In this document: positions 2,793 to 32,021 of the stretch, piece by piece
How the letters are laid out: each line of letters starts with the position of its first letter
Numbering within the stretch: position 1 is the stretch's first letter
NCBI GenBank assembly: GCA_947455515.1
Contig: CANGOF010000019.1
Coordinates: 1 to 33,776 of the forward strand
Length of the DNA: 33,776 bases
From: Flavobacteriia bacterium
Lineage (GTDB): Bacteria; Bacteroidota; Bacteroidia; Flavobacteriales_D; Crocinitomicaceae
Direction: 5' to 3'
Notes under the pieces: model-generated
Told to the model about the DNA's origin: nothing
The model's input: the letters and a program-made list of their open reading frames with translations, nothing else
Databases searched by the model: none
Position numbers and translations under genes: made by a program

Positions 2793-2907
2793 AAATTAGA
2801 TTTTTTGAGGCAAACAAAAAATTTAACCCGCAGTTTACATTGGTAAATGAGGAGTTAAATTTTGAAGTTGAACGAAGAAAAAGCAATTTATTAAAGTCAC
2901 TAAAAAA
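2793..2907 (+). repeat. 115-bp structured repeat, copy A, before sucB
   Basis: Aligns without gaps to the minus-strand sequence 31858-31972 with 20 mismatches by hand count (about 83% identity). It fills most of the sucA-sucB gap and ends 9 nt before the sucB ATG. An outer 10-bp stem (2818-2827 with 2854-2863) encloses a 5x5 internal loop and an inner 6-bp hairpin (2833-2838 with 2843-2848) whose tetraloop is ATTG. The reading frame starting at the TTG in that loop (2840) encodes 29 residues with the motif ERRKSNLLK and stops at 2929, overlapping the sucB start by 13 nt. Stretches conserved in both copies include AAATTAGATT at the 5' end and CGAAGAAAAAGC in the 3' part. Family not recognised. 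Confidence 0.85.
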
Positions 2908-2916
2908 TAGAATAGC

Positions 2917-4179
2917 ATGTCAGTATTAGAAATGAAAGTACCTAGCCCTGGAGAATCGATTTCAGAAGTTGAAATTGCATCTTGGTTGGTAACTGATGGA
3001 GATTACGTAGAAAAGGACCAAGCGATTGCTGAAGTAGATTCAGACAAAGCGACTTTAGAATTGCCTGCAGAACAAAGTGGAATTATCACGTTGAAAGCAG
3101 AAGAAGGCGATGTAGTAAAAGTTGGTCAGGTAGTATGTTTGATTGATACTTCTGCGGCTCGTCCGGAAGGAAGTGTTGCTCCAGTTGCAAAAGTAGAAGC
3201 TCCAGTTGTAGAAGCGCCAAAAGCGGTTGAAACAAAAACTGCAGCACCTTCTCCAAATCCGGTGAATGAAAAAACATCGTATGCTAGTGGAACACCATCT
3301 ATTGCTGCTGCAAAAATTATGGCTGAAAACAATATTCCTGCGAATAAAGTAGCGGCATCAGGTAAAGATGGACGTATCACGAAGCAAGATGTTGTAGCTG
3401 CAATGTCTGCTGGAGTTAGTGCAGATGCTGCGCAAGGTTGGGGAGGAACACGTGAGCAATCTCGTGAGAAAATGTCGATGATGCGTCGTAAAATTGCAGA
3501 ACGTTTAGTTGCAGTGAAAAACGAAACAGCGATGTTGACTACTTTCAACGAAGTGGATATGAAACCAATCATGGATTTACGTGCTAAATACAAAGATAGT
3601 TTTGCTAAATTCCACGAAGTGAATTTAGGATTTATGTCTTTCTTTACGAAAGCAGTGACGGAAGCGTTAAATATTTATCCAGCAGTTAATGGTCAAATTG
3701 ATGGAAATGAGATTATTTTCCACAATTATGCTGACATAGGAATTGCAGTATCTTCTCCAAAAGGATTGATGGTACCTGTTGTTCGCAATGCTGAGCAAAT
3801 GTCTTTAGCGGAGATTGAGCGTGAGATTAAGCGTTTAGCAATTAAAGCACGAGATGGAAAAATCACACCAGATGATATGACAGGAGGTACATTTACCATC
3901 ACGAATGGTGGCGTATTTGGATCTATGTTGTCTACACCGATTATCAATCCTCCACAATCTGCTATTTTAGGTATGCACAATATTGTTGAGCGTCCTGTAG
4001 CAATTAACGGAAAGGTTGAAATTCGTCCGATTATGTACGTAGCGCTTTCTTATGACCACAGAATTATTGATGGTAAGGAATCTGTTGGATTCTTAGTAAA
4101 AGTAAAAGAGATGTTAGAAAATCCAGAAAGAATGATATTCGGAGGTAAAGATCCGTTACAAGTACTTTTGGGATTATAG
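2917..4179 (+). CDS. sucB: Dihydrolipoyllysine succinyltransferase (E2 of 2-oxoglutarate dehydrogenase)
   Basis: E2 core that accepts the succinyl group from E1 on a lipoyl-lysine and transfers it to CoA. Residues 1-78 form one lipoyl domain with the lipoylated lysine in [10 protein letters not shown] (Lys44). An Ala/Pro/Val/Glu-rich flexible linker follows (about 80-125). Then comes an E3/E1-binding domain ([14 protein letters not shown] ... [15 protein letters not shown]) and a C-terminal acyltransferase domain with the catalytic [11 protein letters not shown] (His381, Asp385). The length of 420 aa and a single lipoyl domain fit SucB rather than pyruvate dehydrogenase AceF. It directly follows sucA on the same strand and ends in a strong terminator, so sucAB is a closed transcription unit. 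The start at 2917 is the only ATG giving a complete lipoyl domain. Confidence 0.98.
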
Positions 4180-30192: not shown

Positions 30193-31308
30193 TTAGAACC
30201 AGATTGTAAGATTTGAGATAAACCAAGACATTTGTTTCGATGGATTTCCTTGTGGATCTATGAAATTCTTATCTGAAGAAAAGAATTGTCTGCCTTCCAG
30301 ACGAAATAATGCTTGGTCAGTGAGCTTGATGTTTAAACACAAACCACTACTACCAGCTTTAAATGCTCCAGGTACTGTAACCGGTGTAATTTGAACGTTA
30401 GTCGCATCGTTAAAATATTCTATTCGACCAGAGAGTGACGTTTTTGTATTGAACTTATAATTTCCAATAAAATTTGCTTGCCACCAGTAATTATTACTCT
30501 GTTTTCCATCGATTTGCATTCTTTTTTGATTTCCAAAGTATACACAAGAAGTTGCTGACATCTTGCTTACAGGGTTTGAATAGGACCAATAGAGATCAGT
30601 AAAATAGCGAATGCGATTAAGTGGACTAGAAACAGAACGTTCATCACCAATGTAAGTATTAAAGTTTATCAAATGATTTGCTTTAGGTCGATATTCTAAT
30701 TGCGTACCGATTGATTTTCCATTATTTACATCTTGAATTTGTTGCCAACCATTTAATAAATATATATATGCGGTTAATTTAGTAGAAAGTGGAAATGTGG
30801 CTTTTACCCCTGACAAATAATAAGGCACGTATTCAGGTGCAAAACTTCGAGTATACATTAAATGATCTTTACTTATAGCACTTTCATTTGTGTATGGAGA
30901 ACCTAGTATACCTGCATCAATCCAGATATCTCTTTTCTTACTAATTCTCACACCAATATTTCCTTCAATTATATTTTTTAACGTTCCTGGTTCTGCACTG
31001 TAATTTGCATTTACATAAGAACCGACGCCAGGGACAAATCGTGCACGTATGTTTTCATCCGAATATTTGAAATCAAGGTAGGCTAAATTTACATTTAGTT
31101 CATTGCTACGATTCATACTGACAAAGTAAGGCATATTATTGTCTTTCAATCTGGAAGGTGTAGCTCCGTAGTAGGTGTCAATATATGCACCAATCGTAAC
31201 TTTATTCAATACTTTTTCAGTATTAACTAGATTCGTGTCAGTCTGTTGAGCAATTAATTGGGTAAAACACATCGAAGTTAAACCCAAACAAAGGATTATA
31301 CTTTTCAT
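30193..31308 (-). CDS. OmpL-like outer-membrane porin of the kdp operon
   Basis: 371 aa. Signal peptide MKSIILCLGLTSMCFTQLIA, cleaved before Gln21. The rest is a beta barrel of the putative porin-2 / OmpL-like (BBP2) family: GAYIDTYYGA, NVNLAYLDFKYSDENIRARF, IEGNIGVRIS, IWIDAGILGSPYTNESA, YLLNGWQQIQDVNNGKS and a closing strand with terminal Phe (WFISNLTIWF). It lies between kdpC and kdpD, with the start overlapping the kdpC stop by 4 nt and kdpD beginning 1 nt later, so it is cotranscribed with the pump. This suggests an outer-membrane channel that lets K+ reach the Kdp ATPase at the inner membrane; that role is inferred from context. Confidence 0.88.
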   Translation of the reverse strand: MKSIILCLGLTSMCFTQLIAQQTDTNLVNTEKVLNKVTIGAYIDTYYGATPSRLKDNNMPYFVSMNRSNELNVNLAYLDFKYSDENIRARFVPGVGSYVNANYSAEPGTLKNIIEGNIGVRISKKRDIWIDAGILGSPYTNESAISKDHLMYTRSFAPEYVPYYLSGVKATFPLSTKLTAYIYLLNGWQQIQDVNNGKSIGTQLEYRPKANHLINFNTYIGDERSVSSPLNRIRYFTDLYWSYSNPVSKMSATSCVYFGNQKRMQIDGKQSNNYWWQANFIGNYKFNTKTSLSGRIEYFNDATNVQITPVTVPGAFKAGSSGLCLNIKLTDQALFRLEGRQFFSSDKNFIDPQGNPSKQMSWFISNLTIWF

Positions 31309-31850
31309 AATTTATTTAATGCTAAATTCAATTTCAACACATTAATTTTTTCGGTTCCCACCAAATTCCAAAGTGGTTTCTCCGTTTGTTGCGCAATCAG
31401 TTTCATCACTTTTTGAGGCGATAACTTTCGTGCTTTCGCGATACGTGCGACTTGAGCCTTAGCAGCTTGAACAGAAATATTTGGATCTAAACCACTTCCA
31501 CTTGCAGTAACTAAATCTGCTGGAACATCTTGTTTTTTTACCGTTGGGTTATGTACTAAGAATGTGTCGATACGCGCCTCAACTTCTTTTAAATAGTCGG
31601 GATTTGTAGGACCTTTATTACTCCCTGCCGCACCAGCTGCATTATAGTCTACAGCAGATGGTCGGCCGTGGAAATATTCGTCTTTCGTGAATTTTTGACC
31701 AATGTTTGCAAAATGCTTTTTGGCGATGATTTCTCCTTTTCCTTTGGAAGAAGTACATTGTGCTATTCCCCAAACGATCAAGGAATAGAGACCGACAAAA
31801 ACGATCGCACTGATCAAGGTAAGTCGGATGGATTGTATAAGTGTTTTCAT
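31305..31850 (-). CDS. kdpC: Potassium-transporting ATPase subunit C
   Basis: 181-aa KdpC, the single-span subunit that stabilises the KdpFABC pump and raises its affinity for ATP. One N-terminal membrane helix (about 8-31) is followed by the periplasmic domain with the family blocks YFHGRPSAVDYNAAGAAGSN, KGPTNPDYL, PADLVTASGSGLDPNIS and AKAQVARIAKAR. The chosen ATG at 31850 gives the usual KdpC N-terminus (MKTLIQSIRLTL). The frame stays open to an ATG at 31925 that would add 25 residues encoded entirely by the upstream structured repeat. That extension shares its sequence with the leader before sucB and is not part of KdpC. Confidence 0.96.
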   Translation of the reverse strand: MKTLIQSIRLTLISAIVFVGLYSLIVWGIAQCTSSKGKGEIIAKKHFANIGQKFTKDEYFHGRPSAVDYNAAGAAGSNKGPTNPDYLKEVEARIDTFLVHNPTVKKQDVPADLVTASGSGLDPNISVQAAKAQVARIAKARKLSPQKVMKLIAQQTEKPLWNLVGTEKINVLKLNLALNKL

Positions 31851-31857
31851 AAGATTT

Positions 31858-31972
31858 TTTTTAAGGAACTTCAATAAATTGCTTTTTCTTCGTTCGCCTG
31901 CGAAATTAAATTCCTCATTTACCATTGTAAATTCCGGATTTAATTGCTTGTCTGCCTCGAATAATCTAATTT
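31858..31972 (-). repeat. 115-bp structured repeat, copy B, before kdpC
   Basis: Minus-strand counterpart of 2793-2907, ending 7 nt before the kdpC ATG in the kdpB-kdpC gap. The outer stem (31945-31938 with 31911-31904, 8 bp) and the inner 6-bp hairpin (31932-31927 with 31922-31917) match the copy A fold, with two compensatory base-pair changes in the outer stem. The tetraloop is AATG and contains the ATG (31925-31923) that is in frame with kdpC, where copy A has TTG. The internal loop CCGNA / GAGGA is kept. Conserved peptide motifs shared with copy A are VNEE and ERRKSNLLK. Confidence 0.85.
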
Positions 31973-32021
31973 TTTGAAATTCCTTTAATTAATATAAATT
32001 TGACAAAGTTCATCTGGACGT

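Follow-up and report, generated by a model that had tools for sequence, protein, structure and literature searches.

RU-1 and ERIC are two names for the same repeat, and REPs are repeats that are mobilized by Y1 RAYT proteins. In the parts of PMC2759123 that describe it, RU-1 is an intergenic, MITE-like repeat of approximately 127 bp, and passages of PMC10969869 report that mRNA decay in Yersinia enterocolitica changes when ERIC is inserted at the 3' ends of genes. The Correia (NEMIS) elements of Neisseria are presented in the same passages as MITEs that lie within transcripts and are cleaved by RNase III at their terminal repeats. For the Bacillus cereus group, excerpts of PMC3446304 describe the intergenic repeats bcr1 to bcr18; in two strains, the copies found in mRNA numbered 84 of 165 and 62 of 155. 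REPs have a length of 20 to 40 bp (excerpt of PMC3733652), and those of Escherichia coli stall ribosomes when located no more than 15 nt from a stop codon; 260 of 496 REPs in one study and 446 of 4,072 in another were proposed to act in this manner (excerpt of PMC12306157). Among the Bacteroidetes, BrickBuilt of Porphyromonas gingivalis is described as a MITE containing a minisatellite (excerpt of PMC4596501; name from an excerpt of PMC10969869).

The flavobacterial element reported here is similar to ERIC of the Enterobacteriaceae in its size (approximately 127 bp for ERIC), intergenic location, and MITE-like character, a likeness drawn from the excerpted descriptions. Unlike ERIC, it has a fixed core, copy-specific arms, and an identified IS5-family partner. 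It also differs from REPs in its length (approximately 120 nt) and in its IS5-family partner. Promoters and an IHF site are features of Correia elements (excerpt of PMC10969869); for the flavobacterial element, the comparison extends to a promoter motif scan. The bcr repeats belong to another taxon; bcr1 to bcr3 are MITE-like, and bcr10 and bcr18 have a conserved secondary structure (excerpt of PMC3446304), two properties that the flavobacterial element combines. The likeness to BrickBuilt, also a MITE and from the same phylum, is again one of excerpted description only. Among the titles and opening lines of abstracts returned by literature searches, the Porphyromonas MITE was named and no description of the present hairpin MITE family was noticed. 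The string GACCGTTGCAAAA was not found in the literature searched, and the main text of PMC2267715 contains no word beginning with bacteroid, flavobacter, or porphyromonas.

Repeat family and distribution

The window (the whole analyzed stretch of 33,776 nt) contains two copies of the element, which constitute the sole repeat pair reported by a search with a minimum length of 40 nt (positions 2780 to 2907 and 31858 to 31985, inverted, 128 nt, 80% identity). By blastn, the copies are 83% identical over 115 nt with approximately 20 mismatches, in agreement with the 115-bp pair with 20 mismatches described in the sequence-only reading. Copy A forms a hairpin at positions 2782 to 2901 on the + strand (covariance model match at 2777 to 2906, 133 bits), between the stop codon of sucA (2779 to 2781) and the start codon of sucB (2917). 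The interval given for it earlier, 2793 to 2907, does contain the element, but its start falls inside the left arm of the hairpin. Copy B is located on the - strand in the kdpB-kdpC gap (31858 to 31988; model match at 31859 to 31988, 122 bits). The names of the neighboring genes sucA (2-oxoglutarate dehydrogenase E1; 52 to 2781, +), sucB (E2; 2917 to 4179, +), kdpB, and kdpC (31305 to 31850, -) were confirmed with family models. As previously noted from the letters, copy A ends 9 nt before the ATG of sucB (2917) and copy B ends 7 nt before that of kdpC (31850). A mechanical open reading frame extends kdpC by 25 codons to position 31925 (31851 to 31925, -), running into copy B; this longer call is probably spurious, as the kdpC family models begin at approximately residue 26, which corresponds to the ATG at 31850. 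On the other side of copy B, approximately 35 nt (31987 to 32021, -) separate it from the kdpB stop codon; this stretch contains GAACTTTGTCAAA, is likewise missing at the empty site of the related genome G004, and may be part of another repeat.

The window pair represents two members of a dispersed repeat family of freshwater flavobacteria. With copy A as the query, blastn returned 43 matches in its own genome (G000, a 2.9-Mb draft) at an E value of ≤10, 32 of them at <1e-5. A covariance model (R1) built from 20 copies detected at least 33 copies in this genome at an E value of ≤1e-3 and at least one in each of the 13 genus genomes at the same threshold, including at least 45 in G005, 42 in G001, 2 in G006, and 1 each in G002 and G003. 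These counts are lower bounds, with 150 candidates scored per genome (for G000, 150 of 4,856 first-look candidates). The single copy in G003 was detected by the covariance model and not by blastn or by the family-wide search, which employed stricter filters. In that search, 38 of 200 family genomes, representing 8 of 24 genera including the element's own genus, had matches at an E value of ≤1e-4; for metagenome-assembled genomes (MAGs) G100 and G107, cross-contamination is a possible source of the matches. When one genome from each of 84,980 species was scanned for the sequence pattern, 51 stretches were retrieved, 50 of which held copies confirmed by the model, all in MAGs that bear the titles Flavobacteriia, Flavobacteriales, Bacteroidetes, Chryseobacterium gleum, or Chitinophaga pinensis. 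For the sole pattern match outside Bacteroidetes-named MAGs (L116, Candidatus Magasanikbacteria), the covariance model gave no confirmation. Phage and plasmid collections contained no match over most of the query, only stretches of approximately 50 nt at E values of 0.1 to 0.3.

Two adjoining copies, with model matches 1 to 8 nt apart, were present in direct orientation at L216 and L251 and in inverted orientation at L250. Copies at L239 to L244 (G107, genus g9) had further outer arms, such as GGGTGCCTCTAAAAA / TTTTTAGACGTGCCC at L243, which perhaps represent the termini of a different transposon; the G107 MAG consists of 670 contigs and may be mixed.

Secondary structure and covariation

The copies of the family share one long hairpin of approximately 120 nt. 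An outer stem of 13 model pairs is followed by an A/T stem, an internal loop (GAGGCANAC / GTYGAACGA), and an inner stem; a 5x5 internal loop (CCGCA/GAGGA, or TTTGA/GAAAA-like in some copies) and an apical hairpin (TTTAC-NNNN-GTAAA) complete the structure. In copy A, the outer arms occupy positions 2782 to 2797 (helix 1 of the covariation test) and 2885 to 2901 in both the fold and the covariation test. Comparison of copies placed the conserved strands of the internal loop at 2807 to 2815 (5' side, GAGGCAAAC) and 2867 to 2875 (3' side, GTTGAACGA), and the fold placed the apical part, with CCGCA, the hairpin GTTTAC-ATTG-GTAAAT, and GAGGA, at 2828 to 2853 (all +). The outer stem, CCGNA/GAGGA internal loop, and 6-bp hairpin with a 4-nt loop that had been drawn from the two window copies were thus found again. 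Additional apical hairpins, either of 15 nt (CCCGAT..ATCGGG) or of approximately 40 nt, are present in some copies, and a few truncated or rearranged copies (e.g., L016, L020, and L023) do not adopt the standard fold.

The compensatory changes first noted between the two window copies hold across 20 copies, in which 28 of 39 pairs showed two-sided changes (shuffle mean, 16.4; at most 18 with slid pairings). In the same alignment, 92.2% of the cells were paired (shuffle mean, 77.1%), and the covariation score was 0.433 (shuffle mean, 0.160; at most 0.165 with slid partners). A score of 0.516 (shuffle mean, 0.161; at most 0.129 with slid partners) was obtained for 45 further rows (alignment A5), which derive mostly from early-branching species and other genera and include one row that is the reverse strand of another. 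The outer stem is the most variable part in sequence, yet 86.9% of its cells were paired in the 20 copies; the letters of the left outer arm vary from copy to copy with pairing retained. Conservation is highest in the internal loops and the apical hairpin, and the inner stems covary as well in both alignments.

Strand asymmetry

Across 94 distinct copies, the model pairs comprised 3,165 Watson-Crick, 191 G·U, 19 A·C, and 225 other cells; these copies, from 113 model matches, are the best-scoring or pattern-matching copies rather than all copies. Eight of the loci in this set are from G007, G011, and G012, and five of the eight have inverted repeats; without the eight, the remaining 86 copies had 173 G·U and 19 A·C cells. 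The gene-context groups and the comparisons between orthologous copies draw on this set of 94 as well. Alignments A2 to A5 were fitted to the + strand model and lean toward the + strand; the sequence-only alignment A1 showed the same lean (43 G·U versus 4 A·C). The preference for G·U was evident in the larger gene-context groups, including stop-adjacent copies flanked on both sides by genes of the opposite strand (70 G·U versus 6 A·C), and the strand asymmetry is independent of gene orientation. Differences within orthologous sites were distributed similarly (29 G·U versus 8 A·C). Furthermore, the mean predicted RNA fold energy was -31.7 for the + strand versus -24.3 for the - strand, with the + strand being lower at 48 of 49 sites (57 of 58 when the eight G007, G011, and G012 loci were included). 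Given both the excess of G·U and the lower fold energy, the + strand is the folded strand, whether in the form of RNA or of single-stranded DNA. In both the sucA-sucB copy and the kdpB-kdpC copy, the strand that folds strongly is the mRNA strand.

Relationship to an IS5-family transposon

The same core is located between inverted repeats, AAGACCGTTGCAAAAG...TTTTGCAACGGTCTT, in three genus genomes (G007, G011, and G012) and in two other genera, g27 (G040) and g35 (G200). Among 51 distinct inverted-repeat copies from G007, G011, G012, G040, G200, and G084, chosen by having AAGACCGTTGCAAAAG-type ends, 31 were flanked by perfect 5-bp target duplications, 12 by duplications with one mismatch, and 8 by sequences with more; shuffled pairing of the flanks yielded a mean of 2.3 and a maximum of 9 perfect duplications. 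A PF01609 search identified a 1,307-bp transposon in G200, which belongs to another genus (L335, 248 to 1554; duplication ATACC). Its ends match those of the element over 15 to 16 bp, with one mismatch at the right end, and its transposase is of the IS5 family (NF033581, 270 bits versus a cutoff of 140; DDE_Tnp_1 plus DUF772). No convincing blastn match between this transposon and the small element was found beyond the ends.

The element is short, noncoding, and multicopy (approximately 120 nt and at least 33 copies in G000), and its inverted-repeat members have terminal inverted repeats, a 5-bp target duplication, and an autonomous element with the same ends. On the basis of the inverted repeats, the duplications, and the IS5-family transposon with matching ends in these other members, the family is a MITE by origin, with an IS5-family transposon as its probable mobilizer.

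A broken copy of the transposon is present in G012. The IS5-family transposase was not found in G000, G001, G003, G004, G005, G007, G008, G009, or G010; matches in G002 and G006 were distant (29 to 33% identity), and a 44% match in G011 was broken. The absence of a transposase from draft genomes is weak evidence of halted movement, because G007 (an 80% complete draft) has inverted-repeat copies and no transposase was found in it. No transposase was recognized in 12 stretches with further matches to the end repeats, as judged from the start of the open reading frame translations.

Insertion and evolution of the arm-variable copies

Copies of the window type have arms that are degenerate and copy specific and that still pair. 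Genomes with such arm-variable copies (G000, G001, G004, G005, and G008 to G010) are referred to here as the main clade, a set defined by these copies; G007 also has some copies with other arms besides its inverted-repeat copies. The left outer arm of copy A lies where the copies that bear terminal repeats have their left inverted repeat. More generally, when distances are measured from the conserved loop, the arms of the window copies and the inverted repeats end at nearly the same point; by eye, on a composite of printed arms, 8 of their first 14 letters agree. The main clade lacks clean insertion junctions, and 48 arm-variable sites (copies under 120 nt left out) gave no signal of target duplication: among 242 combinations of offset and length, the best had 3 exact matches versus 0.4 when shuffled. 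The shared core, the place of the arms, and their weak similarity suggest that the arms of the window copies are drifted ends of the inverted-repeat kind.

The sucA-sucB copy is an insertion. The gap is filled in 3 of 11 loci (G000, G005, and G001) and is empty, with a length of approximately 20 nt, in the other 8 (G004, G010, G009, G008, G007, G011, G003, and G012); G002 and G006 yielded only paralogues in this comparison. The kdpB-kdpC gap of G004 likewise contains no element. Given the 8 of 11 species with an empty sucA-sucB gap and the empty kdp operon of G004, the element is not part of the ancestral operon design. At one orthologous site, G000 has a full element (L043) where G005 (L166) retains only the two outer arms as a core-less mini-hairpin, which we read as a deletion. 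At another, where G000 (L048) and others have the element at the stop codon of a gene, G004 (L174, G004:C123:1960-2390) has another stretch with GTCAGACTGAGCGTAGTCGAAG, which we take to resemble a REP-type palindrome.

Between orthologous copies, where one side of an arm had changed, pairing was kept in 14 of 45 cases, close to the neutral expectation by a rough estimate. Where both sides had changed, it was kept in 15 of 18 cases, mainly in three diverged pairs (L048/L129, L087/L151, and L083/L148). These changes are compatible with each of slow compensatory selection, template switching, and replacement between copies.

Placement relative to genes

With the eight G007, G011, and G012 loci set aside, placement was assessed at 50 of 53 independent arm-variable sites, excluding copies under 115 nt and sites without a called right-hand gene; sites were merged by downstream flank only, and genes were mechanical open reading frames. 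The flanking genes were oriented (-,-) at 18 sites, (+,+) at 15, (+,-) at 13, (-,+) at 3, and (none,-) at 1. The right-hand gene thus runs toward the element at 32 of the 50 sites, and its stop codon was no more than 10 nt from the end of the stem at 29 of these 32. At the left end, the stop codon of a + strand gene was within this distance at only 3 of 28 sites (Fisher p = 2e-10 for right versus left). With the eight additional loci included, the values were 32 of 37 at the right end and 3 of 32 at the left end. Among the inverted-repeat copies, a stop codon was within 10 nt at 8 of 24 right ends and 8 of 33 left ends; as right-end proximity differed from that of the arm-variable copies (p = 1e-5), the right-end rule belongs to the latter.

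The sequence-only reading had proposed that the element controls translation or mRNA processing between operon genes from a position before start codons. Its expectation of nonrandom placement relative to genes was borne out, as were those of many copies in the genome and its relatives and of covariation, but location before start codons is not general. Only 15 of the 50 sites have the element in sense between co-oriented genes, and the opposite relation at 32 argues against intra-operon control as a general rule. Where the right-hand gene is on the + strand, the right end of the element was 17 to 20 nt ahead of the called start in 7 of 18 cases; negative start distances in 4 of the 18 probably reflect miscalled starts, as for kdpC. 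Between convergent genes, a terminator-like hairpin was often seen, by eye, just to the left of the element, which would place the element in the 3' untranslated region (UTR) of the right-hand gene, as the other strand. At all 32 sites with an inward right-hand gene, the message of that gene carries the strand opposite to the + strand, and action in this message therefore does not explain why + strand pairing was kept.

Other candidate identities

A coding function was rejected, as the frame GAG GCN was open in 28 of the 54 cores examined, and the cores differ in length by 1 to 2 nt in addition to larger insertions. No Rfam match was obtained in the window at the gathering threshold. Subthreshold matches, to miRNA and snoRNA models, overlap the element in the window and at six other loci, the best being SNORD11 with 27 bits (gathering threshold, 55). 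Conserved outer core sites (RYYYAAC / GTTRRRY) are characteristic of attC sites; by inspection, the outer arms differed among 30 copies with no fixed core sites, and an attC identity was rejected. Linkage to REP/RAYT systems was rejected as well, with 26 loci with Y1 matches yielding two weak model matches (best E value, 0.03). The two-part Bacteroidetes promoter motif occurred at two places on the + strand and three on the - strand over 59 sites. One half of this motif, TAnnTTTG, was found 16 times on the + strand within the inner stem (offset 80 to 99) at the same 59 sites and could serve a weak promoter. No T tract, and thus no terminator T tract, was found at either end of the element.

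Proposed explanation and alternatives

The observations as a whole are probably best explained by a MITE-derived hairpin family with old, stop-flush copies that likely act at the mRNA level. Among the close relatives of the window, in which the transposase was not found, the copies would be old and no longer moving. Their terminal repeats would have drifted while pairing was retained, and the survivors would be copies in short operon gaps and copies that directly adjoin a stop codon, oriented such that the mRNA receives the weaker fold. On one reading of the right-end rule, a stop-flush copy may be tolerated only if its orientation leaves the message with this weaker fold. The element would act as RNA: within untranslated mRNA, either in the 3' UTR or between cistrons, its hairpin would alter processing or decay of the flanking message. 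From the precedents of ERIC, Correia, REP, and bcr repeats, we infer that an effect on mRNA decay, processing, or translation termination is the likeliest mode of action. A more far-reaching proposal, that an IS5-type MITE-borne structured RNA family was domesticated in one freshwater flavobacterial lineage as a strand-specific, stop-codon-anchored antisense or 3'-end RNA that works at dozens of genes, its arms co-evolving at each site, appears rather unlikely.

It is rather unlikely that the element is a selfish or neutral palindrome without host function, the arms of which are kept by template-switch (quasipalindrome) correction and a shared transposase end requirement. The neutral-looking one-sided arm changes and the bunched double changes in orthologues would suit such a palindrome, and the core-less mini-hairpin in G005 (L043 against L166) is an expected leftover of template switching. 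However, correction should erase the internal loops, which rank among the most conserved parts, and covariation extends to the inner stems. Nor does correction predict the ratio of G·U to A·C (191:19, and 29:8 within sites) or the right-end placement at stop codons.

The strand asymmetry, which holds regardless of gene orientation, would also be expected if a tyrosine transposase or integrase recognized the folded + strand in its single-stranded DNA form, as for REP, IS200-IS605, or attC-like elements, and Y1 transposases are present in 10 of the 13 genus genomes at an E value of ≤0.001 (9 above the family cutoff). This appears improbable in view of the 5-bp target duplications and IS5-family ends of the inverted-repeat copies, the lack of a convincing copy within the loci of the 26 Y1 matches (best E value, 0.03), and the copy-specific outer arms, which provide no fixed recognition site. 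A dedicated cis-acting regulator of operon mRNA, with a hairpin ahead of the start codon governing how the next gene is translated or processed, is very improbable. The sense location between co-oriented genes at 15 of 50 sites, the distance of 17 to 20 nt to the called start in 7 of 18 cases, and the identity of the best-folding strand with the sense strand would agree with it, but the relation to the right-hand gene is the opposite at 32 of 50 sites, and the same operon is without the element in most relatives.

As a caution, compensatory changes between two repeat copies alone do not indicate an operon regulator. For the MITE-derived hairpin family preferred here, one bacterial family appears to show both stages of a repeat: mobile copies with intact ends and target duplications, and older, stop-flush copies with ends that have changed and still pair. 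These two stages allow the question to be asked of whether a selfish repeat turned into an RNA element of gene ends.
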